The notes under the pieces are model-generated. The model did no database searches, was not told where the DNA came from, and saw only the letters and a program-made list of their open reading frames with translations. Below, in pieces: positions 8,620-31,996 of a stretch of 31,996 nucleotides of DNA. Made by a program: the position numbers and the translations under genes. Numbering within the stretch: position 1 is the stretch's first letter; the number at the start of each line of letters is the position of its first letter. The stretch covers positions 1 to 31,996 of the IMG/VR virus record IMGVR_UViG_3300030943_000115; one strand, written 5' to 3'. Origin of the DNA: a virus.

Positions 8620-11322
8620 ATGGCCATAATTGATTTATTAAACCGCGCTAAACAGGTAAAAACCGAAACTGTAGAACTAAATAATAGTTCTACACGTATT
8701 GGTGGTTTGTTTGAAGATACTCTAAATTATGTTGAGACAATCTTGACCGGAATTTATGACGTTTCATATAAAATACCGCTTCCGGCAGGTCAATATTATA
8801 CTGCTACAACTGCTAGAGCTGCAGTTCCGGTTTCTTTCCGCAAAAAAGGATTAGTAATATCTTATGATACTTCTTCCACTGTCTATGTTATTGAGGAATT
8901 CTATCAAGGCGAAGTTTCAGCATGGACAACTTCCGGTAATTGGAAGAATAATACCAGTAAGATTTTAAATGCCATTTCTCTGATTGATGGTAAAGTTACA
9001 GATGAAGTTGGGTTAAGGATTGCGGGGGATGCTAATTTGCAGGGTCAGATAAATGCAGTTTCTGCCGGATCTTTAGGAGCAATAGCTTATAATGATCCGG
9101 CTCCAACACCTGGTAAAAATGGGTATTTTAAATTTTCAAATGGTGGAAGTTGTACATTTATTACCGGCGGAGCAGTTACAGTAAAAGCACAAGATGAATT
9201 ATCAGTAGAATTTACAGCACCATCAACTTATGTTTATAAGGCTATTGTGATTGATAATTCTCAATTTGTAAGCAAATCTGCTCAATCATTTACATCTGCA
9301 GAAAAATTGCAAGCTCGCAAAAATACAGAATCAAAACATGAGTATCAAGATGCTTCAATAGTTGATGCTGAAAAAATACCATTACCAAATATCGGTTGGA
9401 GGTCAACGTTAGGCGTATATACGGCACAATCAATGTTTTATTCAAGCGATTTGATACCAATTGTTGGCATAATTTATATGTATGCACCAATTCACAGCAA
9501 TGAAAGTGTTGCTACAGTTTGTTTTTTCAATTCTTCGGGTGTTTTTATATCGGCTTTTAAAGCAAGAAAAATTGGATTTTATTGCATCGATGAGTTTCCA
9601 GCTACAGCAACTCAATATACATTTACATCAAATACCGATAGTAGGACTTATTGGTGCAGAAATGGGGTTCAACAGGATTTAAGAAAATATATAAATGTTT
9701 CTGTAAATAATTTAAAAGTAGCCGATCCGAATTTAATTGATTTGCCATTAACATGGGTAGCCGGTAGCTATTATAGTGCAACTACAGGTAATTTAGTTCC
9801 TCAAGGAGGATGGAATTACACTGCGCCTATTGATTTATCATTAATCTCGTTAGCAATCTCGGGTAGCTACAATGATAATGGAACTGTTGCAAGCGTTTTA
9901 TATCAGCGTGCCGATGGTACTTTTTTACAAAAAGATACGAATCTTATTAACGGTACTCTTTATACAGATAAGATTTTAAACAAACCATACGAAGCTAAAT
10001 ACGCCATATTGTCTTGTCCTGATGCTGCAAAATTTACAGCAAAAAGCTCTACAAATATAAATATATCAGACCTTCCAGCTGCAATTACACCATTATATTT
10101 AGCTAAAGTGAAAAAACCAACTTATAATTATTTTATTGATTATAACTTGTTTGTTCCGCTAAATTTGAAGCGTTGGATTGATGGGGATTATAATGGATTA
10201 GACAGTGTAGTAACAGCAACTTCGCTAGGATTATTTTCAGCCTACGGTTTTGGAAAAGAATTAAATATTGTCAATTCTGGAAGTATTGGGAATAAAGCAA
10301 TTCTGATGATTCAAACTGTCCGTAACGAGTTGAAGGTTAGTAATAGAATTAATTTTCATTTTTTTGCTGTTGCAACAGTTTCTGGAACATATAGCATTCA
10401 ATTATATAATTTGAATACATCAGTAAAAACAATTCCTTTGATTTTGACAGCAAATGTAATTCAAGAGGTAAGTTTTTATTATGATTTTCCTAATGGATAT
10501 GATTGGACAACATTTAGCCGACTAGTACTTTATAGCATTAATCATCCGTCTACATCGACATTAACAGTTTCACCATTTGAAATATGGGATGGCAAATTAC
10601 CACAACCGTCATTTACGAATCAAATTTCATTAAAAGAATCCAATATATTGATAGATAGAAGTGGATTCGTTGGGAAAAGAGGGTTGTTTATAGGAGACAG
10701 TATTTCGGTGACTAATGAACGGTTTTGGAAAGGTGTTCTTTCTACCCTATATGGATTTGACTATGTTTTACCAATTGCAGGACAATTAGCTCCTGCACAA
10801 GGAGGGATGCCACTTTATCCACATGTAACAGAAACAACGGGTTCAGAAAGTATATGGTATCGGTGCGGTGGCAATAGAATGAGTATTTATTCATTCGACA
10901 AGATAAATTTATTTGGCGGAACGAATGATTTAAATGCCGGCTATAACTTAGGTGCTGCTACTGATACAGCCTATAAAGATACGAATAGTCGGCCGGGTAC
11001 TTTGACATGGTGTGCGGCATTTAAAGGGTGTATAGAGATGTTACAACGAGATTTCCCCGGCATTGAGATCGTTATTTGTACAGTTTTGGATACAAGTGGT
11101 TATGGCAATACAATGTATGATGGAACTTATAATACTCGCGAAGCCATGGCCATACGTCAGATGCAAATAGCTGCATTATACAATCTCAAATGTGTTCCAT
11201 TCTTTTGGATGTCAGGAATAACAGCTCATAATACGCCAATGATGACAGCGGATAGCATACATCCAAACTTATTCGGTGCAAATGGAATGGCTGCTTGTTA
11301 TGCTGCTACTGTAGGTTTATAA
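8620..11322 (+). CDS. Tail fibre / receptor-binding protein with C-terminal SGNH hydrolase
   Basis: A 900-aa fibre-type protein. The N-terminus (residues 1-60) is a short coiled attachment region (AIIDLLNRAKQVKTETVEL). The middle (about 240-680) is beta-rich, with at least two jelly-roll-like blocks (one near 262-325, another near 368-480). The C-terminal 210 residues form an SGNH/GDSL hydrolase: GDS at 692-694 (nucleophile S694), GTND at 767-770 (N769) and DSIH at 878-881 (D878, H881). Such domains remove acyl groups from glycans, so the fibre probably de-esterifies surface polysaccharide during adsorption. It follows late promoter copy 4 and precedes the lysis genes. The hydrolase call is strong; the substrate is unknown. 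Confidence 0.8.
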   Translation: MAIIDLLNRAKQVKTETVELNNSSTRIGGLFEDTLNYVETILTGIYDVSYKIPLPAGQYYTATTARAAVPVSFRKKGLVISYDTSSTVYVIEEFYQGEVSAWTTSGNWKNNTSKILNAISLIDGKVTDEVGLRIAGDANLQGQINAVSAGSLGAIAYNDPAPTPGKNGYFKFSNGGSCTFITGGAVTVKAQDELSVEFTAPSTYVYKAIVIDNSQFVSKSAQSFTSAEKLQARKNTESKHEYQDASIVDAEKIPLPNIGWRSTLGVYTAQSMFYSSDLIPIVGIIYMYAPIHSNESVATVCFFNSSGVFISAFKARKIGFYCIDEFPATATQYTFTSNTDSRTYWCRNGVQQDLRKYINVSVNNLKVADPNLIDLPLTWVAGSYYSATTGNLVPQGGWNYTAPIDLSLISLAISGSYNDNGTVASVLYQRADGTFLQKDTNLINGTLYTDKILNKPYEAKYAILSCPDAAKFTAKSSTNINISDLPAAITPLYLAKVKKPTYNYFIDYNLFVPLNLKRWIDGDYNGLDSVVTATSLGLFSAYGFGKELNIVNSGSIGNKAILMIQTVRNELKVSNRINFHFFAVATVSGTYSIQLYNLNTSVKTIPLILTANVIQEVSFYYDFPNGYDWTTFSRLVLYSINHPSTSTLTVSPFEIWDGKLPQPSFTNQISLKESNILIDRSGFVGKRGLFIGDSISVTNERFWKGVLSTLYGFDYVLPIAGQLAPAQGGMPLYPHVTETTGSESIWYRCGGNRMSIYSFDKINLFGGTNDLNAGYNLGAATDTAYKDTNSRPGTLTWCAAFKGCIEMLQRDFPGIEIVICTVLDTSGYGNTMYDGTYNTREAMAIRQMQIAALYNLKCVPFFWMSGITAHNTPMMTADSIHPNLFGANGMAACYAATVGL

Positions 11323-24615: not shown

Positions 24616-24976
24616 ATACGTATTTAAGTACATTAATGAAAAACCGCGTCCGCAAATTGCAAAAGATATTGGACGTTCAGAACTCGCCCTGGATCTTTAT
24701 CTACACCGGCACAGAAATGATCCTAGATTACTTGATAAAAAGAATCTGCTGATTCAATTACTTCAGAAAAAGTTTAAGGATATAACCTGTTTTACTCCCA
24801 ATCGTTCGTTTTTTGACGAAGTGAAAATAGGACAAAAAAGGTACTGGAGCATTTATAAAGGCACAGATCAAATAACCGGAGAAGAATTAAAACGTATTGC
24901 TGATTACTTAGATGTGACATTGGAAGGTGTTTACGAAGCACGACAAACATCTCTTTTTGAAAATATAACCAAATGA
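24587..24976 (+). CDS. Double helix-turn-helix-like regulator
   Basis: A 129-aa protein with a SANT/HTH-like N-terminus (WSKAQTRYVFKYINEKPRPQIAKDIGRS, about 4-31, then LDLYLHRHRN) and a second Cro-like segment (FDEVKIGQKRYWSIYKGTDQITGEELKRIADYLDV, about 75-110). The second repeats the residue spacing of CI/Cro DNA-binding helices. It sits directly before the primase gene with an ATGA overlap, so it may control or assist replication initiation. DNA binding is inferred from the pattern. Confidence 0.6.
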   Translation: MKHWSKAQTRYVFKYINEKPRPQIAKDIGRSELALDLYLHRHRNDPRLLDKKNLLIQLLQKKFKDITCFTPNRSFFDEVKIGQKRYWSIYKGTDQITGEELKRIADYLDVTLEGVYEARQTSLFENITK

Positions 24977-27900
24977 GCCAAATATCCCCAGATATAATTT
25001 CCAAAATTAAAGATAAATCCGATATTGTTCAGGTTATCGGGAAGTCTTTAAAACTCACAAAACACGGTCGTAATTACGTTGGTATATGTCCATTTCACTC
25101 GGATAAAGCACCATCGCTGACCGTTTCACCACAAAAAAATATTTACACTTGTTTTGCCTGTGGAGCTACAGGTGATGTGATAAACTTTGTAAAAGAGCAT
25201 GAGCGAGTTTCATTTTTCGAAGCCGTGAAAAGTCTGGCCAAAGATTGTCATATCGAACTTCCGGAAGTAAGCATGACACCCGAAGACACGGCTAGGCAAA
25301 AACAGCGGGAATCGGTTTTTATCGTTCTGCAGGAAAGTCAAAACCAATTTTCGGAAAATTTGAAATCGTTTGAATTTGCAACGGAATATGTAAAAGTTAC
25401 CCGCCAACTTACCGACGATACTATTGAAACATTCCGGATTGGTTACGCTAATCAGGATAATCAGATTACCCGCGAATTTCCAAAACGCGGATACAACTTC
25501 GATAATTTATTAGCGGCAGGAATGACGGGTATTTCTGAAGAAAAGAAATTTCAATACGATACATTCCGTCAGCGAATCACATTCCCTTATTTGGATATGC
25601 ATGGTCGCCCGATAGGTTTTACCGGCCGAATAACAGACAATGAAGCCAAAACTGCTAAATATCTCAATACGCCGGATACACTGGTGTTCAATAAAGGGAA
25701 TGTGCTGTTTGGTTTATTCCAGGCAAAAGAATCTATTATCCGCAAAAACAAAGCTTATCTGGTAGAAGGTCAATTTGATGTGGCTTCCATTTACCAACGT
25801 GGTGTTCAGAATATAATTGCCGGGTCAGGTACTGCGCTAACCGATGCACAGGCACGGTTGCTAAAACGATTTACCAATACAGTGGTAGGTATTTATGATC
25901 CTGACGCTGCCGGATTAAAAGCCAGTATCTCCAATGCAAAAACATTCCTGGCACATGGGTTCGATGTGCGTGCCATTATGTTACCAGAAGGACAGGATCC
26001 TGATGATTTTGCCAAAGCTTCAGTAAATCAGGATTTATCCGTATTGCTTCAAAATAGAGAACTATCTTTTATTGAATATTTTTTTGAAGCTAAGAAAGTA
26101 GCCAAAGTTTCAGACTTTGAAAGTGAACAACTGCTCGATCAGATTTGCGAATGCATTTCGGTAGTGCCAAGTAAGAGTCTTCGTGAAAAGTATTTAATAA
26201 GTGTATCAAATACATTTAATATCTCGTTAAATTTAATAAAAGATAAAGCCAAACCAACAAAAGAACTTAAAGTAGAAAATTGGAAACATGGGTTTTACGG
26301 ATTAGAGGATGCGGCCGAACTAATGGAAGATGATGAGGAGTCGGATTGTTGGTTGGTTTTTGATCAGAAAAATTTTATTGAATCATTTTCTGAAACTCCA
26401 ACAATATTAGCCGTTGGAAATCCAACATTAACCGATTTGCAGTCATTACGACCAGTTACAAGCAAATTGATTGTAAATTCAATTAAAACTATTGAGCCAA
26501 CAGAAGCCGGAGAACCTAAACCATTGCTATTATTGAAAAATATGCATAAAAACGGATTTGATATTTCCGTTGGTGATGGTGATAAAACAATGAGTTTCTG
26601 TGATTTTTATATAGAAAAATATGGAGAGCTACTTAGTGGGGAAAAATCGGAAGATAAAATTACAGATAGTACAAAAATATCTGAAATTATTGGCAAGTGT
26701 GCTGAAGTGATATCTCAGTTAGATGCAACCGTAAGAGTAGTTATTCAAGATGTTTATGCTAAAAAGCTGAACATGAAAGCAACTGCTTTCGAAAAAGTAA
26801 TGAAACCGTTCCTGGCCAAAAAGAAAGATAAAGCCATGATCGACAATCAACGTATGGGTGAGCTTGGACAGGCTATTGATACTGAAATTATTCCTGAGTA
26901 CGTTGAAAAAGATAAAGTGCTTTGGAATAACTATCTGAAATGGGGATTTTATCCATTGGCTGACAAAGATGGTCGTTATTTTACCTATATGTTCAAGAAT
27001 CAAAACGGTGCTAGTAGTCATTCTCCTGTGTCGGATTTCTTTATCAAACCATTGCTCCATATTTTTGACGAAAGCAACGACGATGCCAATAATAAACGTG
27101 TGATCCAACTTTGCCACATGGATAAACGCCTGGATAAATACGTAGAGTGGAAATCGGGAATATTTGCTGTTCTACCAAAAGTACATGAAAAATTGGTCAA
27201 TGTAGGTCCTTACAATTATTTCGGGACGGTAGATCAATACAAGCGCATTTGGATGAACATGAGTTACGGATTTACAAAGTGCTATCCAACCGGAATACTT
27301 GGACAACATAACGATGGTTTTTTTGTGTTTGGTAATGCCATATTTCACAAAGTGCAAGGTAAGTATCAGATTGATTATGTAGATGATTTGGGAGTAGTGA
27401 CACATGATGACACTAATTATTATCTTCCGGCATTTTCAAAAATTCATCTGGATAGAAAAAACGACAGTGATAAAAACAAATACAAATTAGCACGAAATTT
27501 TATGTATAAAGAAATAAATGAAGATAAACAATTGCCTTTCAAACGTTGGGCTGAGTTAATGGACAAAGTTTATACGGTAAATGATAATGGTAAATGGGCT
27601 ATTTTGTACGCCATAACATGCGGTTTCCGTGACTTTATTTTCGAAAACCGTGGAGAATTCACGGCGCCGTTTTTTATTGGTCCTACAAGCTCCGGAAAGT
27701 CAAAAATTGCGGAATCGATCCGTAACTTATACATGGATTATAAATCGGCTGCATTCAATTTGAACACCGGTACTCCGGCAGCTTTTTTTATGTTTATCGA
27801 AAGCTTGAGGAATCTTCCTATTGTAATGGAAGAATACAACGACAATACGATTAACCCTATGATTTTTCAGGCTCTAAAAGCAGCCACTTTAGACGGACAA

Positions 27901-28917
27901 GGGCGTATAAAAGTGGCTGATGCTGCCAGTAAAACGATGGATAGCTCAGAGATAAATGCATCCCTTATATTACTAGGCCAGGAAGCACCGCAAAAGGATG
28001 ATGGATCGTTGGCCAACCGCTGTATTATTTGCGATGTTCCGTCGCGCGACTTTACAGAAGAAGAAAGTGCAATTTTTGAAGAATTGAAAAATTCTGAGAA
28101 ATCCGGACTTTCAAATATTCTCCTTCAGGTGCTTGAGCTTCGCGAAATATACGAACGTCACTATCTCACCATTCTAGCCGATGAAACTAAAAAGCTCAAG
28201 GAATCGGTAAAAGTAAATGTCTCGAATACCGAAGGGCTGATGCGTATCGTCAACGCTTGTGCATTGATGACAGCAACTTGTAAATTATTGGAGGAACATG
28301 CTCCACACATGCAACTACCTTTTTCTTATTCCGAATTTTTACCCATTGCTCAGCAAAAGGTATTTAGCCAAATAGAACGCATATCCAGCACTAATAAACT
28401 ATCTACTTACTTCCAAACCATGTCGACGTTGATTACTCATGAAAAGATAAAAATCGGACGTGAGCTCAAAATTAGCGAAACAACAAGTGTAACACGTTTG
28501 CTTTCAGGCAAAAAGAAAGAAGAGGTTTTATTCAATGTTGGAACTAAAGTTCTTTATATTGATTTTGAGGGAGTTTACTCACTTTATCAGAAAGAAATCG
28601 GAAGTAATGAGGCTCTTAGCCGTCAATCGCTTACGGCTTATTTCAACAGTAATCAGGCATTTATAGGTTTATGCAACGCAACCCGCTTCAAATGGATCGT
28701 ACCGGAACATGCCGGATCTTCCGTTGAAGCCGAAGTTGCACTAGATGGCGAATCGGTAGTAACCAATACAAACGCACGTATGAGAATGACTGATAAAACA
28801 AAAACAACATCGGCTTATATGTTTAACTACAACATATTGAAAGGTCTAGTAGATATAGATTTTGAGCGAATAGAAGAAACAGGAGTAGTACCTGGAGAAA
28901 GTGATTTGCCATTTTGA
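24973..28917 (+). CDS. Primase-helicase fusion
   Basis: A 1314-aa replication protein. Residues 1-100 form a CHC2 zinc domain (C39, H42, C60, C63). Residues about 120-250 match the DnaG RNA polymerase N-domain (FRQRITFPYLDMHGRPIGF). A TOPRIM domain spans about 258-350, with E265 in VEGQFD, D309 and D311 in IYDPDAAG, and EGQDPDDF. A poorly recognised region (about 400-880) follows. The C-terminal part has an ATPase with Walker A GPTSSGKS (903-910) and a Walker B-like IVMEEY (about 950-955). This joins primer synthesis and DNA unwinding in one chain, as in T7 gp4-type proteins, although the ATPase looks more like an SF3/AAA helicase than DnaB. Confidence 0.9.
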   Translation: MSQISPDIISKIKDKSDIVQVIGKSLKLTKHGRNYVGICPFHSDKAPSLTVSPQKNIYTCFACGATGDVINFVKEHERVSFFEAVKSLAKDCHIELPEVSMTPEDTARQKQRESVFIVLQESQNQFSENLKSFEFATEYVKVTRQLTDDTIETFRIGYANQDNQITREFPKRGYNFDNLLAAGMTGISEEKKFQYDTFRQRITFPYLDMHGRPIGFTGRITDNEAKTAKYLNTPDTLVFNKGNVLFGLFQAKESIIRKNKAYLVEGQFDVASIYQRGVQNIIAGSGTALTDAQARLLKRFTNTVVGIYDPDAAGLKASISNAKTFLAHGFDVRAIMLPEGQDPDDFAKASVNQDLSVLLQNRELSFIEYFFEAKKVAKVSDFESEQLLDQICECISVVPSKSLREKYLISVSNTFNISLNLIKDKAKPTKELKVENWKHGFYGLEDAAELMEDDEESDCWLVFDQKNFIESFSETPTILAVGNPTLTDLQSLRPVTSKLIVNSIKTIEPTEAGEPKPLLLLKNMHKNGFDISVGDGDKTMSFCDFYIEKYGELLSGEKSEDKITDSTKISEIIGKCAEVISQLDATVRVVIQDVYAKKLNMKATAFEKVMKPFLAKKKDKAMIDNQRMGELGQAIDTEIIPEYVEKDKVLWNNYLKWGFYPLADKDGRYFTYMFKNQNGASSHSPVSDFFIKPLLHIFDESNDDANNKRVIQLCHMDKRLDKYVEWKSGIFAVLPKVHEKLVNVGPYNYFGTVDQYKRIWMNMSYGFTKCYPTGILGQHNDGFFVFGNAIFHKVQGKYQIDYVDDLGVVTHDDTNYYLPAFSKIHLDRKNDSDKNKYKLARNFMYKEINEDKQLPFKRWAELMDKVYTVNDNGKWAILYAITCGFRDFIFENRGEFTAPFFIGPTSSGKSKIAESIRNLYMDYKSAAFNLNTGTPAAFFMFIESLRNLPIVMEEYNDNTINPMIFQALKAATLDGQGRIKVADAASKTMDSSEINASLILLGQEAPQKDDGSLANRCIICDVPSRDFTEEESAIFEELKNSEKSGLSNILLQVLELREIYERHYLTILADETKKLKESVKVNVSNTEGLMRIVNACALMTATCKLLEEHAPHMQLPFSYSEFLPIAQQKVFSQIERISSTNKLSTYFQTMSTLITHEKIKIGRELKISETTSVTRLLSGKKKEEVLFNVGTKVLYIDFEGVYSLYQKEIGSNEALSRQSLTAYFNSNQAFIGLCNATRFKWIVPEHAGSSVEAEVALDGESVVTNTNARMRMTDKTKTTSAYMFNYNILKGLVDIDFERIEETGVVPGESDLPF

Positions 28918-28935
28918 AAATAACATATTCATATT

Positions 28936-29466
28936 ATGAAAGCAATTACAATTAAACAGCCATGGGCTTCACTTATTTGCGAAGGGATTAAAGATATTGA
29001 AAATCGTTCGTGGAGAACTAAATTTCGAGGTCGTATTTTGATTCATGCTTCCGCAAATTCTATTAAATATTTTAGTGCTTTAGATTTTTTCGGTGAAGAA
29101 AGACTTAAAGTGATTAAAGAAAAAACTGGTTATGTTCCTGAACTGCCAATATCATCTATTATCGGATCAGTAGAAATAATTGATTGCGTCAGCAAAACTT
29201 ATAATAGAAAAGGAGATACAACGTCTATTTGGGCGGACGAAGGTCAATGGCACTGGGTGCTAGCAAACCCGATTCTATTTCCTGAACCAATTTCCGTAAA
29301 AGGAAAACAATCATTTTGGGACTATCCAAATATTTTAGCTGAACCCGAAGAAAAAAAAGGCGAACTATTTTGTCATTGTCAATTACCCGTAAAAGAAGAA
29401 AATCAAGTTGCTAGATTTATAACACATTATCGTTGTAGATACTGCGGTGGTCTTTGGTATAAATAA
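28936..29466 (+). CDS. ASCH-domain protein with C-terminal zinc ribbon
   Basis: The N-terminal about 130 residues are a clear ASCH domain (PUA-like, RNA/nucleotide-interacting): MKAITIKQPWASLICEGIKD, IENRSWRT and RGRILIHAS. After a linker, the last 35 residues hold C-x-C and C-x2-C pairs (FCHCQ and YRCRYCGG), probably one zinc ribbon. ASCH proteins are frequent in phages. It starts 19 nt after the primase stop and is followed by the first attC-like site (29488). No attC arm partner for its own left boundary was found, so whether it is cassette or resident gene is open. Confidence 0.8.
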   Translation: MKAITIKQPWASLICEGIKDIENRSWRTKFRGRILIHASANSIKYFSALDFFGEERLKVIKEKTGYVPELPISSIIGSVEIIDCVSKTYNRKGDTTSIWADEGQWHWVLANPILFPEPISVKGKQSFWDYPNILAEPEEKKGELFCHCQLPVKEENQVARFITHYRCRYCGGLWYK

Positions 29467-29487
29467 ACTGCGTTTTTTTAGCGCAGC

Positions 29488-29620
29488 GCCTAACGAACGA
29501 GGCTATCCGCTTTTGGCGGTTTGCGGGCAGTCGACTTGTCGACAAGCAAAATGGTAAATACGGGAGCCGAAACCTGCTAAACGCACGGAATAGCTAATGG
29601 CGGATAGGCGTGTGTTAGCT
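29488..29620 (+). repeat. attC-like site 1
   Basis: R'' arm GCCTAAC (29488-29494) and R' arm GTTAGCT (29614-29620), 133 bp overall. The inner stem CTATCCGC (29503-29510) pairs with GCGGATAG (29600-29607), separated from the R arms by unpaired bases, and the centre is an imperfect cruciform with GTCGACTTGTCGAC at 29531-29544. Arms, spacers and location after a gene match an integron attC recombination site. Its R' tail GTTAGCTTC is exactly complementary to the R'' arm of site 2. Confidence 0.75.
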
Positions 29621-29653
29621 TCCAGTGCTTTCTTAATCTTTTAAATCAACATT

Positions 29654-30109
29654 ATGATTGTAAATAAAGAATTAGCCAATTCAAAAGGCTGTTTGCAAAA
29701 AGATAAGTGGGAAACTCCACATAAGATCTTTAATCAACTTAATCAACTATACAATTTTACTCTTGATCCGGCTTGCGAAATTCATACAGCTAAATGCAAT
29801 AGGTTTTTTACAGAGCTTGATAACTCACTTATAAAAGATTGGTCAAACGAGATCGTTTTTTTAAATCCGCCATACTCGAGAGGAAATATAGATCTTTTCA
29901 TGCAAAAATGCTATGAAGAAAGTTTAAAAGGAACTAAGATTGTAGCTTTAATTCCAGTATCAACATCCTCGAAATGGTGGCATAATTTCGTATGGAATAA
30001 AGCAAAGATCCATTTTTATAAAGGTCGTATTCGTTTTGTTGGCGCACCATTTACCGCACCATTTTCGAGTTGCCTTGCAATTTACAATTTACCGCTTCCG
30101 CCTCTTTAG
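29654..30109 (+). CDS. Phage-type DNA N6-adenine methyltransferase
   Basis: A 151-aa protein of the phage Dam-like family: the N-terminal WETP motif (19-22), a motif-I-like LDPACE (37-42), the catalytic NPPY (71-74) and a C-terminal hydrophobic block. It would transfer a methyl group from S-adenosylmethionine to adenine N6, protecting phage DNA from host restriction or timing replication. It is a little shorter than many relatives (often about 160-180 aa). It lies alone inside the second attC-bounded segment, with its own 40-nt leader after attC-like site 1. The ASCH neighbours suggest a nucleic-acid modification theme. Confidence 0.85.
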   Translation: MIVNKELANSKGCLQKDKWETPHKIFNQLNQLYNFTLDPACEIHTAKCNRFFTELDNSLIKDWSNEIVFLNPPYSRGNIDLFMQKCYEESLKGTKIVALIPVSTSSKWWHNFVWNKAKIHFYKGRIRFVGAPFTAPFSSCLAIYNLPLPPL

Positions 30110-30113
30110 CATT

Positions 30114-30250
30114 GAAGCTAACGACCGAGGCTATGGGAATTTGGCGGTATGCGGGAGCATTCGCTGTCGTGAAACGACAAAGTGAATGCGGGAGCAAAAC
30201 TGCCGGAATGCACGTCAGCCAGCCAATGAACATAGGCGTGTGTTAGCGGG
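30114..30250 (+). repeat. attC-like site 2
   Basis: R'' arm GAAGCTAAC (30114-30122), R' arm GTTAGCGGG (30242-30250). The inner stem CTATG/CATAG (30131-30135 with 30231-30235) is followed by GGCGGT/ACTGCC, a 9-bp GCATTCGCT/AGTGAATGC stem and GTCGT-GAA-ACGAC at the tip (30166-30178). The same GAGGCTAT and ATAGGCGTGTGTTAGC end boxes occur as in site 1. Confidence 0.75.
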
Positions 30251-30274
30251 TCGTTATTTATTTTTCGTTTTAAT

Positions 30275-30299
30275 TGTCCAAGTTTTGGACACTATTTTG
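30275..30299 (+). promoter_or_regulatory. Operator-like palindrome and possible promoter of cassette 3
   Basis: TGTCCAA-GTT-TTGGACA (30275-30291) is a perfect 7-bp inverted repeat. Two bases later TATTTTG (30293-30299) resembles a -7 box one base short of TAnnTTTG, 22 nt before the ATG at 30322. The palindrome would overlap the -33 region. The TGTCC here is not followed by a box at 28 bp, so it is not a late promoter copy. Confidence 0.45.
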
Positions 30300-30321
30300 A
30301 ACAATTTAATTTCAATTATAT

Positions 30322-30828
30322 ATGAAAACTTATGTAATCACAGTTTCAAGAAAATTTCCAACAACTCATAAAAGAACTGGAGAGCCAACATTCTTTATTG
30401 AAAAGATTTTTGGTGGCTTTAAACAAATAATTCCGTGTCAACTATGCGATTTTGAAAAATTATGTAGTGGGAATTGCACCAAAAACTACGTTAATAAAAA
30501 TCCTAAAATTCATACTATTCGTCAAAATGTCGAATTATGGCAAAAACGAATTTCTGAAATTCAAAAAGGAAATGCGATTCTTTCAATTCGATATTGGTCG
30601 GGAAAACCTTATAATTCAAAACAAGTCGAAATTTGTCAACTTGATAAAAATTCAGGAATTGGACTTGAAGAAGTTATAATTCCATGTATGAATGATATTG
30701 ACCATATAAAACAACTTGCAATGAATGACGGTCTTTCACTCGAAGATTTTGAAGAATGGTTCAAAAAATACGACTTTTCAAAATCGCTTGCAATTATCCA
30801 TTTCACAAAGTTCCGTTATTTTTTATAA
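30322..30828 (+). CDS. ASCH/PUA-like protein with cysteine cluster, 168 aa
   Basis: A soluble alpha/beta protein. CQLCDFEKLCSGNC (about 40-53) has four cysteines in a compact metal-site-like arrangement. KIHTIRQNVELWQKRI, then NAILSIRYWSGKPYNSKQ (about 84-101) recalls the conserved strand and basic loop of ASCH/PUA-type domains. The C-terminal part (LSLEDFEEWFKKYDFSKSLAIIHFT) is helical. It may be a base- or RNA-modification-related reader. It is the only gene in cassette 3, between attC-like sites 2 and 3. The family call is tentative. Confidence 0.6.
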   Translation: MKTYVITVSRKFPTTHKRTGEPTFFIEKIFGGFKQIIPCQLCDFEKLCSGNCTKNYVNKNPKIHTIRQNVELWQKRISEIQKGNAILSIRYWSGKPYNSKQVEICQLDKNSGIGLEEVIIPCMNDIDHIKQLAMNDGLSLEDFEEWFKKYDFSKSLAIIHFTKFRYFL

Positions 30829-30830
30829 TG

Positions 30831-30909
30831 CCCGCTAACATTAAGGCTATTGTTTAGCCTCTTTGAAAATGTCAGCATTTGAGGCTAAATTATAGCCCTG
30901 TGTTAGCAG
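30831..30909 (+). repeat. attC-like site 3, the most compact copy
   Basis: 79 bp. R stem GCTAACA (30834-30840) with TGTTAGC (30901-30907). L stem GGCTAT (30845-30850) with ATAGCC (30892-30897). Inner stem TTTAGCCTC (30853-30861) with GAGGCTAAA (30881-30889). Tip AAATG-TCAG-CATTT (30867-30880), with a 5-nt bulge on one side. The alternation of paired boxes and unpaired spacers is what attC folding on one strand needs. R' is GTTAGCAG (30902-30909). Confidence 0.8.
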
Positions 30910-30932
30910 TCATACCATTTCTTTCTTACAAG

Positions 30933-30956
30933 CGTTCTTTGAAATTTTGAGAGTAT
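30933..30956 (+). repeat. 24-bp perfect inverted repeat, left copy
   Basis: The sequence CGTTCTTTGAAATTTT and the 8 bases that follow are exactly the reverse complement of 31830-31853. The two copies bracket the three-gene operon at about 0.9 kb spacing. No target duplication is apparent. Confidence 0.85.
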
Positions 30957-30974
30957 AAAGTTAAATGATTATCA

Positions 30975-31031
30975 TATATGAAAACTTTAACTATAAATGT
31001 TTTCGTATATGAAAACAAACATCTATATTTG
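30975..31031 (+). promoter_or_regulatory. Promoter and operator repeats of cassette 4 operon
   Basis: TATATTTG (31024-31031) is a good TAnnTTTG -7 box, 25 nt before the ATG at 31056. TATATGAAAAC occurs at 30975 and again at 31006, 31 bp apart, and a related ATATGAAAAC sits at the start codon. GTTTTC-GTATAT-GAAAAC (30999-31016) is a palindrome over the -33 region. The arrangement suggests autoregulation by the HTH protein that ends the operon. Confidence 0.6.
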
Positions 31032-31055
31032 CATATCATTTAAAACGAAAACGAT

Positions 31056-31403
31056 ATGAAAACTATTAAAGACATTCTTACAGAAAACAGAGACAGCGTT
31101 ATTAGTTCAATCAAATTTTGTTTTAAAGTTTATAGAGCTGACGAAATCAGAACTAAAATGATTGAATTTCTTGCTTATGCTGAAAAATACGGAAACGTAG
31201 AAAGATTAGAAAATAGCAAAAGAGTAAAATCAGACTTGAAAGATATAGTTTGTCACATGGCTATCGAACAAAAACGTGAAGAAAAAAGACTTTTCAATTT
31301 GACTACTTACGGAATTGAAAATCCAACAATTGCAGATATGCAAGCACACGCACACCAAGACGAAAAATTTAATTTTCTAAAGAAAGAATGGATTAAATAT
31401 TAA
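31056..31403 (+). CDS. Hypothetical protein of cassette 4, 115 aa
   Basis: A charged, mainly helical soluble protein (MKTIKDILTENRDSVISSIK start; a long KR/E-rich middle; a HAHQDEKFNFLKKEW end). No known family. It is the first gene of a three-gene operon in the fourth cassette, under a promoter with operator-like repeats. By position and size it could be the toxin-like or effector member of a small self-regulated module; I see no catalytic motif to support that. Confidence 0.6.
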   Translation: MKTIKDILTENRDSVISSIKFCFKVYRADEIRTKMIEFLAYAEKYGNVERLENSKRVKSDLKDIVCHMAIEQKREEKRLFNLTTYGIENPTIADMQAHAHQDEKFNFLKKEWIKY

Positions 31404-31430
31404 TAGTTATAAATTTTAAAAATTACAATT

Positions 31431-31646
31431 ATGGAAGCAACTTATTATGTTATCGCAATCATGTACGGACAAAACACAGAGTATTGGAATAGCTCATTGA
31501 AAGCTGACGATTACACAGTTAAAATGATTGAAAATGCAGAGGGTTTTGGTTCGGTAGAAGCTGCTGAAAAAGAGCTTGAAAACGCTGTAAAACCTTACGG
31601 AATTTCAAAAGGTTGGAATGTTACTTATTCAATTGACGAAGCATGA
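31431..31646 (+). CDS. Hypothetical protein of cassette 4, 71 aa
   Basis: A small acidic alpha/beta protein (YYVIAIMYGQNTEYWNSSLKADDYTVKMI in outline, then GSVEAAEKELENAVKPYG). No recognised family. It begins 27 nt after the previous gene and shares ATGA (31643-31646) with the HTH gene, so the last two genes are translationally coupled. Confidence 0.55.
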   Translation: MEATYYVIAIMYGQNTEYWNSSLKADDYTVKMIENAEGFGSVEAAEKELENAVKPYGISKGWNVTYSIDEA

Positions 31647-31825
31647 CAATCCGAGAATCAATTATCTATTTTCAGGATTTAGCAAACATATCAAATGCCA
31701 CAATGTGCAATGCGATAGAAACTACTCCTGGTAATTATAGCTCATTCCGAGCTGGACGAAGAAACCTGACATGGGAGCAACTTCAAAAAGCTATTGATTT
31801 TCTAGAACTGAAAATCACAAAATAA
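31643..31825 (+). CDS. Small HTH (Cro/CI-like) protein, 60 aa
   Basis: Nearly the whole protein is one XRE-like helix-turn-helix: LANISNATMCNAIETTPGNYSSFRAGRRNLTWEQLQKAIDFLEL. The SSFRAGRRNLT turn matches the recognition-helix end of the family. It is the last gene of the operon and the obvious candidate to bind the TATATGAAAAC repeats upstream. Operons with a trailing small HTH repressor are common among toxin-antitoxin-like modules, but that role is inferred. Confidence 0.65.
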   Translation: MTIRESIIYFQDLANISNATMCNAIETTPGNYSSFRAGRRNLTWEQLQKAIDFLELKITK

Positions 31826-31829
31826 TAAC

Positions 31830-31853
31830 ATACTCTCAAAATTTCAAAGAACG
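31830..31853 (-). repeat. 24-bp perfect inverted repeat, right copy
   Basis: Exact reverse complement of 30933-30956, starting 5 nt after the stop codon of the HTH gene. Its last bases are part of the 5' arm of the terminator at 31846. Confidence 0.85.
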
Positions 31854-31887
31854 ACCGGATTAGCAACCCCGGTCGTTCTTTTTTTTT
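31846..31887 (+). terminator. Terminator of the cassette 4 operon
   Basis: GAACGACCGG (31849-31858) pairs with CCGGTCGTTC (31869-31878), extendable by three A-T pairs, and is followed by T9. It ends 8 nt before the attC-like site 4 arm. Confidence 0.85.
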
Positions 31888-31894
31888 ATGGTTG

Positions 31895-31996
31895 CTGCTA
31901 ACGTATTGCAGCTATGGTTTAGTGCCGGACTTAACGCACAAAAGGTCGGACGAGAGCAAATAGAGTATTTTTTTGTGCGTGGATTTCTTAATTTTA
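31895..31996 (+). repeat. attC-like site 4, truncated by the window end
   Basis: The R'' arm CTGCTAAC (31895-31902), followed by GTATTGCAGCTATGG, resembles the 5' half of sites 1-3, and an inner inverted repeat ACGCACAAAA/TTTTGTGCGT lies at about 31934-31980. The R' arm would lie beyond the end. CTGCTAAC is complementary to GTTAGCAG of site 3. Confidence 0.6.

Follow-up and report, generated by a model that had tools for sequence, protein, structure and literature searches.

The virus record IMGVR_UViG_3300030943_000115 of IMG/VR, analyzed over its full 31,996 bases (hereinafter, the window; one strand, with its right edge at a contig break), carries attC-like sites and small genes to the right of a phage primase gene. 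The repeats are real, and the window contains a phage-borne cassette array resembling a cluster of attC sites lacking integron integrases (CALIN), of a kind already reported in other phages. It is probably a fragment of an integron-like cassette system carried by phages; the fragment lacks the array recombinase, which is encoded in related phages. New here, beyond the known phage CALINs, are an array-linked recombinase without the integron-specific I2 region and flipped cassette genes, both found in related phages outside the window. No description of an I2-less recombinase or of reversed genes in a phage array was found in the literature searched, namely, open-licence papers without preprints, which is weak evidence of absence.

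Imperfect hairpins in a single orientation at gene boundaries, a feature of integrons and CALINs, are present in the window as three complete sites and one half site. Sites A (29490..29619, +), B (30118..30247, +), and C (30835..30907, +; a 72-nt near-palindromic hairpin) run from CTAAC to TGTGTTAGC, with A forming the distal array end and having a predicted crossover after position 29493 (TAA|C). Site D (31898..31996, +) is cut by the contig end after its 5′ half, and its 3′ half lies at positions 40 to 65 of L053, a longer contig of the same phage (L numbers are labels of compared loci and contigs). A first-pass annotation made from the letters alone had described four inverted repeats, of which three are thus complete in the window and the fourth is only a half, and its proposal of attC-like sites in one orientation right of the primase was borne out by comparison with shuffled sequences and by matching flanks. 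The pattern CTAAC-N4..9-GCTA-N20..120-TGTTAG occurred 4 times in the window (the near-palindromic site C was counted on both strands), compared with a mean of 0.03 and a maximum of 1 in 300 dinucleotide shuffles, and the simpler pattern CTAAC-N50..125-GTGTTAGC occurred 3 times (shuffle mean, 0.027; maximum, 1). On a looser stem-based score, A and C reached 10.0 and B reached 7.4, and 20 shuffles gave 7 hits of at least 10; single sites are not significant on this score. In addition, the flanks to the right of one site and to the left of the next are reverse complements of each other, with leading runs beyond GTTA of 5 (A-B), 5 (B-C), and 4 nt (C-D), compared with 1 to 2 nt in nine control flank pairings within the window. 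The contrast is weaker for plain 8-nt flank identity (6, 5, and 5 versus 2 to 6 in the controls, one of which, C-C, reached 6). Such matching flanks are what excised and reinserted cassettes leave. An ATTG-like motif precedes B, C, and D, and the left flank of A has neither the motif nor a partner. An Rfam search of the window gave no match. The R′ boxes of the window (GTTAGCT, GTTAGCG, and GTTAGCA) have C as the sixth base and deviate from the form GTTRRRY stated by Qi et al. (2023, PMC9892861); given that IntI arrays of the phylum are partly off this consensus too (GTTATGC and GTTATAC; L131 fits with GTTAGAC), the 7-mer does not discriminate well here.

The right end of L053 (also G397; 41,969 bases) nearly coincides with that of the window, and at its left end the 3′ half of D is followed by a short stretch free of genes, which ends in TAACAATATTATATG, and then by further genes. 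By eye, TAACAATATTATATG at L053:113 resembles the TAACTA site beside the recombinases of relatives and is a candidate attI-like site of the window phage. Among nine searched L053 proteins, eight had no match and one was a head maturation protease, a structural protein. The array is continuous with the phage early region and is followed further right by a phage structural gene, as the annotation had anticipated; it had also suggested looking for intI in this direction, and the recombinase found in relatives is not an IntI. Because the halves of D in L016 (primase, 91% identical) enclose a gene for a 280-amino-acid N6/N4 DNA methyltransferase (TAAC at 9353 and GTTA at 10357), D is taken as an attC-like site whose loop holds about 1 kb. 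The region is variable among primase relatives; two sites lie to the right of the primase in L017, and L021 and L024 have none, the high-scoring scan hits in L021 being CCCTAACCCC repeats. In L019 (primase, 66% identical), two scored sites and a third recognized by eye lie left of the primase, with a cassette encoding a homolog (55% identical) of the window phrog_8581 protein between them. Array, TAAC site, and recombinase occur together in L019, where the array is followed by CTGCCTAAC|TACTATC, judged by eye to match the last site's end, and then by the tyrosine recombinase gene.

A search with two recombinase queries yielded 27 loci, 18 of which were analyzed; repeat contigs (L062, L072, and L073), a locus with a broken frame (L075), and loci of ≤28% identity (L076 to L080) were left out; in the last group, only L076 gave a site hit, a single weak one. 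The 18 loci include the contigs of the queries themselves (L054 and L071) and near copies (L056/L057 and L058/L065), and the contigs are unequal in length and partly redundant. Sites upstream of the recombinase and on its strand numbered 54, compared with 1.65 expected, with at least one in 16 of the 18 loci, and the other three combinations of side and strand gave 4, 6, and 2 sites (0.9 to 0.95 expected). A second search yielded 20 loci, 10 of which were new contigs and served as the held-out set; analyzed with unchanged settings, these contained 16 upstream same-strand sites versus 0.2 expected, with 4, 3, and 1 in the other classes (0.4 to 0.5 expected). Adjacent cassette ends of the relatives matched at 5.53 of 8 positions over 34 pairs, compared with 2.86 after permutation, a value reached in 0 of 10,000 permutations. 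In 13 of 15 loci, the recombinase has a conserved TAACTA site upstream of it, and in 7 of these 13 the flank of the last detected site matched the TAACTA-side site at 5 or more of 8 positions. L163 has only 9 nt upstream of the recombinase and could not be judged. Searches with exact site patterns, one in viral contigs and one in genome contigs, gave no match, and host arrays were reached via recombinase families. Genes neighboring the viral recombinases include those for phage helicase, primosomal, primase/helicase, exonuclease, and internal virion proteins, and terminase PF03237 was matched in 3 of the 18 records, over the cut-off in 2. The assignment of the recombinase contigs to phages therefore relies on IMG/VR and on genes for replication and virion proteins in the flanks of L061, L070, L068, and L074; the flanks of L067 gave no match to such genes.

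By sequence, the array recombinase is an Xer-like enzyme without the integron-specific I2 region rather than an IntI. The gene is intact in L013, where it follows a long array and is related to the recombinase of L019, and the frame is open over the conserved part in 17 of 19 relatives (exceptions, L071 and L075; the distant L076 was left out). For the L019 and L013 proteins, the best model was XerA (NF040815), below its cut-off, and the closest PDB entry to the L013 protein was also XerA. Against the IntI model TIGR02249 (cut-off, 265 bits), they scored 174.5 and 156 bits, respectively, in two stretches, and the L070 recombinase aligned to IntI4 in two pieces that left IntI4 residues ~181 to 241, the place of the integron-specific insertion, unmatched. 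In a tree of 48 proteins, IntI and XerC/D each formed one group (support, 100/100), and the viral recombinases fell apart from both, beside bacterial XerA-like proteins. Xer enzymes recombine dif sites and are not known to act on cassette arrays. The phage recombinase resembles XerA (5hxy and 4a8e) and XerH (5jjv) in sequence and XerA (5hxy) in predicted fold (Z, 20.8; root mean square deviation, 8.7; 250 aligned residues), although the fold model alone does not separate it from IntI4, for which Z was 19.0. One bacterial row, L111, stood among the viral recombinases in the tree. At L111:7127-7958, on a 4.1-Mb bacterial contig, this phage-clade recombinase gene is preceded, by eye, by a TAACTATTATATAT site and a methyltransferase-like gene, and no array was detected there.

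The polarity of sites and genes was compared with that in 16 Bacteroidota IntI loci (L131 to L146), which were chosen by the authors and lie mostly on long contigs. With the recombinase on the plus strand, the site orientation was TAACG...TGTTA for 38 of 41 sites of the IntI loci and for 54 of 56 sites of the viral set, which comprised 16 loci and did not include L057 or L069. Cassette genes were sense and antisense in a ratio of 32:1 in the viral loci, compared with 6:22 in the IntI loci (p = 3e-10), and the held-out loci gave 7 sense genes and 1 antisense gene (~5:1 without repeats, as L164 and L165 are alike). Compared with these chromosomal IntI integrons, in which genes are antisense in 22 of 28 cassettes and IntI scores over the curated cut-off, site form and site polarity toward the recombinase are the same and the genes are flipped; 32 of the 33 scored viral cassette genes read toward the recombinase side, unlike the genes of complete integrons, which read away from attI and the recombinase. 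Homology across sites never extended more than 12 nt left of TAAC, whereas 8 of 38 alignments (both pair directions counted) continued for 40 nt or more beyond GTTA on the right, and one whole unit, TAAC to TAAC, is common to L055 and L064. IntI arrays were uninformative as a control for these boundaries, their sites being too alike (at least 40 nt right in 3 and left in 5 of 236). An ATG within the site opens the downstream gene at 20 of 53 sites of the relatives (reverse direction, 1), compared with 1 of 38 and 0 of 38 in IntI arrays. In a symmetric scan, which replaced a strand-biased one that could overstate the preference, the gene-sense strand folded better in 48 of 55 elements and worse in 5. 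The recombinase-side site carries TAAC, not GTTA. The attC strand logic laid out in the available part of a 2009 paper (PMC2727003) would, when applied to the phage arrays, make the gene-sense strand the active one, and the recombinase-side TAAC, homology boundaries, in-site ATGs, and folding agree with this. A cassette is most likely an attC-like site plus the gene downstream of it, which reverses the annotation's placement of each site after its gene. The attC-like sites at L061:739, L061:1926, and L064:316 code for almost identical N-terminal peptides (MKDLKHIRRFNESEENLN...) that read on into the downstream cassette gene.

In the proposed mechanism, the mobile unit would consist of an attC hairpin and, downstream of it on that strand, a gene; folding would involve the gene-sense strand, and strand exchange would take place at TAA|C of the left arm. 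New units would enter where the array ends on its 3′ side, at the attI-like TAAC site, by means of the I2-less, Xer-like tyrosine recombinase that adjoins this site in relatives. Genes reading toward the recombinase might be transcribed from upstream phage promoters, unlike those of canonical integrons, which read away from attI, and the window phage would have either lost its recombinase or used one in trans. The chances are about even that phages of Bacteroidota and relatives own an IntI-independent class of integrons, with an I2-less Xer-like recombinase, gene-sense attC hairpins, attI at the 3′ end, a mirror-image array fed by upstream phage promoters, and hairpins that give some cassette genes their start codons and N-terminal residues. 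According to the available text of Escudero et al. (2020, PMC7790495), the gain of the I2 helix in an Xer-like ancestor is thought to have given integron integrases the ability to recombine single-stranded attC sites, and a viral origin of these integrases is speculated upon. A natural attC-associated recombinase without I2 makes the I2-gain step directly testable. If the proposal is true, phages have their own route to shuffle genes such as methyltransferases.

Several observations weigh against this proposal. The window contains no array-type recombinase, and that of L019 (6450-7286) has one in-frame stop, identical in three metagenome contigs. The flank of the last site fails to match the recombinase-side site in 6 of 13 loci (a missed site may intervene), the TAACTA pattern is lacking in 2 of 15, and no upstream site was found in L057, L069 (<60 nt there), or L162 (560 nt there). 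Of 20 regions around recombinase relatives in bacteria, 10 contained one or more strict sites and 3 contained at least two, and all five scored cassette genes had the canonical polarity; 4 of 4 scored genes of one chromosomal IntI array (L143) had the phage-like sense polarity. The ATG test was weak in the held-out loci (6 versus 2). The site scanner was home-made, and the window sites failed its strict form. In addition, a hairpin at 31850-31889 of the window would hamper transcription through the array.

The strongest alternative, an ordinary CALIN, is unlikely; here, canonical cassettes would have been put into the phage by a host IntI, the polarity would reflect a selected subset, and the Xer-like gene would be a passenger. 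IntI is widespread in the phylum, scoring over the curated cut-off in 105 of 395 genomes, Bacteroidota IntI arrays have the same TAACG...TGTTA site form, and five of six phage attC sites were recombined by IntI1 according to the available part of Qi et al. (2023, PMC9892861), so that a host IntI could do likewise, a further point against a dedicated phage system. However, an ordinary CALIN does not account well for the near-uniform sense polarity in two sets of loci (32:1 and 7:1), the recombinase and TAAC site at a fixed place by arrays in distinct phages, or the ATG starts within sites. Array turnover by ordinary homologous recombination among phages, with no site-specific recombinase active today, is considerably less probable still; it would fit the absence of the recombinase from the window phage and its interruption in L019 but not the frame open in 17 of 19 relatives or the sharp TAAC boundaries. 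A reading of the repeats as terminators of transcription or as unrelated hairpins between genes is scarcely credible, for although they are hairpins between co-directional genes, their flanks match across genes, homology breaks at TAAC, the start codon of the downstream gene lies inside 20 of 53 sites of relatives, and a terminator scan of 28900-31996 found four sites (shuffle mean, 2.4), none within A to C, with loops limited to 3 to 8 nt and longer ones, including the hairpin at 31850-31889, outside its range.

The preferred reading, a phage-borne cassette system with its own recombinase, can be set against known systems. Phage CALINs, also with methyltransferases, were published by Qi et al. 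(2023, PMC9892861), with Polaribacter phage P12002L (L028) as a particular example, so the annotation's view of a phage array with such cargo as unusual does not hold. Like the window, these CALINs have attC-like sites, methyltransferase cassettes, and no integrase in the CALIN; a dedicated recombinase or attI-like site is not described in the available text, which on gene polarity gives nothing beyond "divergent directions." P12002L has similar site ends, its sole scored cassette gene is likewise sense, and tblastn with two queries found no relative of the array recombinase in it (best E, 0.62). On the minus strand of L028, ATTGNNNNTAACG...TGTTA-type ends occur at 38035-38936 and 30008-30056, one with a sense methyltransferase gene; these are probably the published CALIN sites of P12002L. 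In the reverse integrons of Treponema, as far as described in the available parts of two reports (PMC7691350 and PMC3607928), recombinase and cassette genes also lie on one strand, with intI transcribed toward attI and the cassettes downstream, whereas in the phage arrays the recombinase is found on the 3′ side of the array, with its transcription leading away from the TAAC site.

The window phage is a tailed phage with an integrase, as indicated by Pfam and PHROG matches to a tape measure protein, a tyrosine integrase, and a primase. Its host would be a member of the Bacteroidota, judging from primase relatives in a Prevotellaceae and a Tannerella metagenome-assembled genome, and a distant-mode search with 28936-31996 found no known phage with similar DNA. 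The primase gene (24973..28917, +; 1,314 amino acids; Pfam and PHROG matches) belongs to the backbone and precedes the array region, and all genes to its right are on the plus strand. The first encodes an ASCH-domain protein (28936..29466, +; PF04266), homologs of which are also encoded to the right of the primase gene in L024, L021/L023, and L019/L020/L025; the site scan found no attC-like site beside the homolog in L024, L021, or L019. Because of this, and because site A lacks both a cassette end and the ATTG-like motif in its left flank, the array most likely starts at site A, with the ASCH gene as backbone, and of the two cargo genes named by the annotation only the methyltransferase stands. 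That gene (29654..30109, +; Dam-type N6-adenine methyltransferase; PF05869, phrog_111, PADLOC orphan methyltransferase) lies in cassette 1 (unit 29494-30121 in the mirror reading), and the phrog_8581 gene (30322..30828, +) lies in cassette 2 (30122-30838). Cassette 3 (30839-31901) contains three small open reading frames on the plus strand, namely, 31056..31403, which has no family match in Pfam, PHROGs, NCBIfam, or PADLOC; 31431..31646, with none in Pfam, PHROGs, or PADLOC; and 31643..31825, with none in Pfam or PHROGs. A terminator-like hairpin with a T-run (AACGACCGG...CCGGTCGTTCTTTTTTTTT) was seen by eye at 31850-31889, at the end of this cassette. No IntI with the additional I2 domain was found in the window, and the sole tyrosine recombinase found there is an ordinary phage integrase (20539..21714, −; PF13102, PF00589, Arm-DNA-bind_5, and phrog_1), which was rejected as the array recombinase; it is of the arm-binding type, lies about 8 kb off the array, and is only weakly similar to the array recombinase. 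Apparently noncoding repeats of the GTAGGTCG/GTAGGACG type occur at L053:650-970, L016:10740-11060, L019:13700-14060, and L021:7540-7900 and may represent a replication origin.

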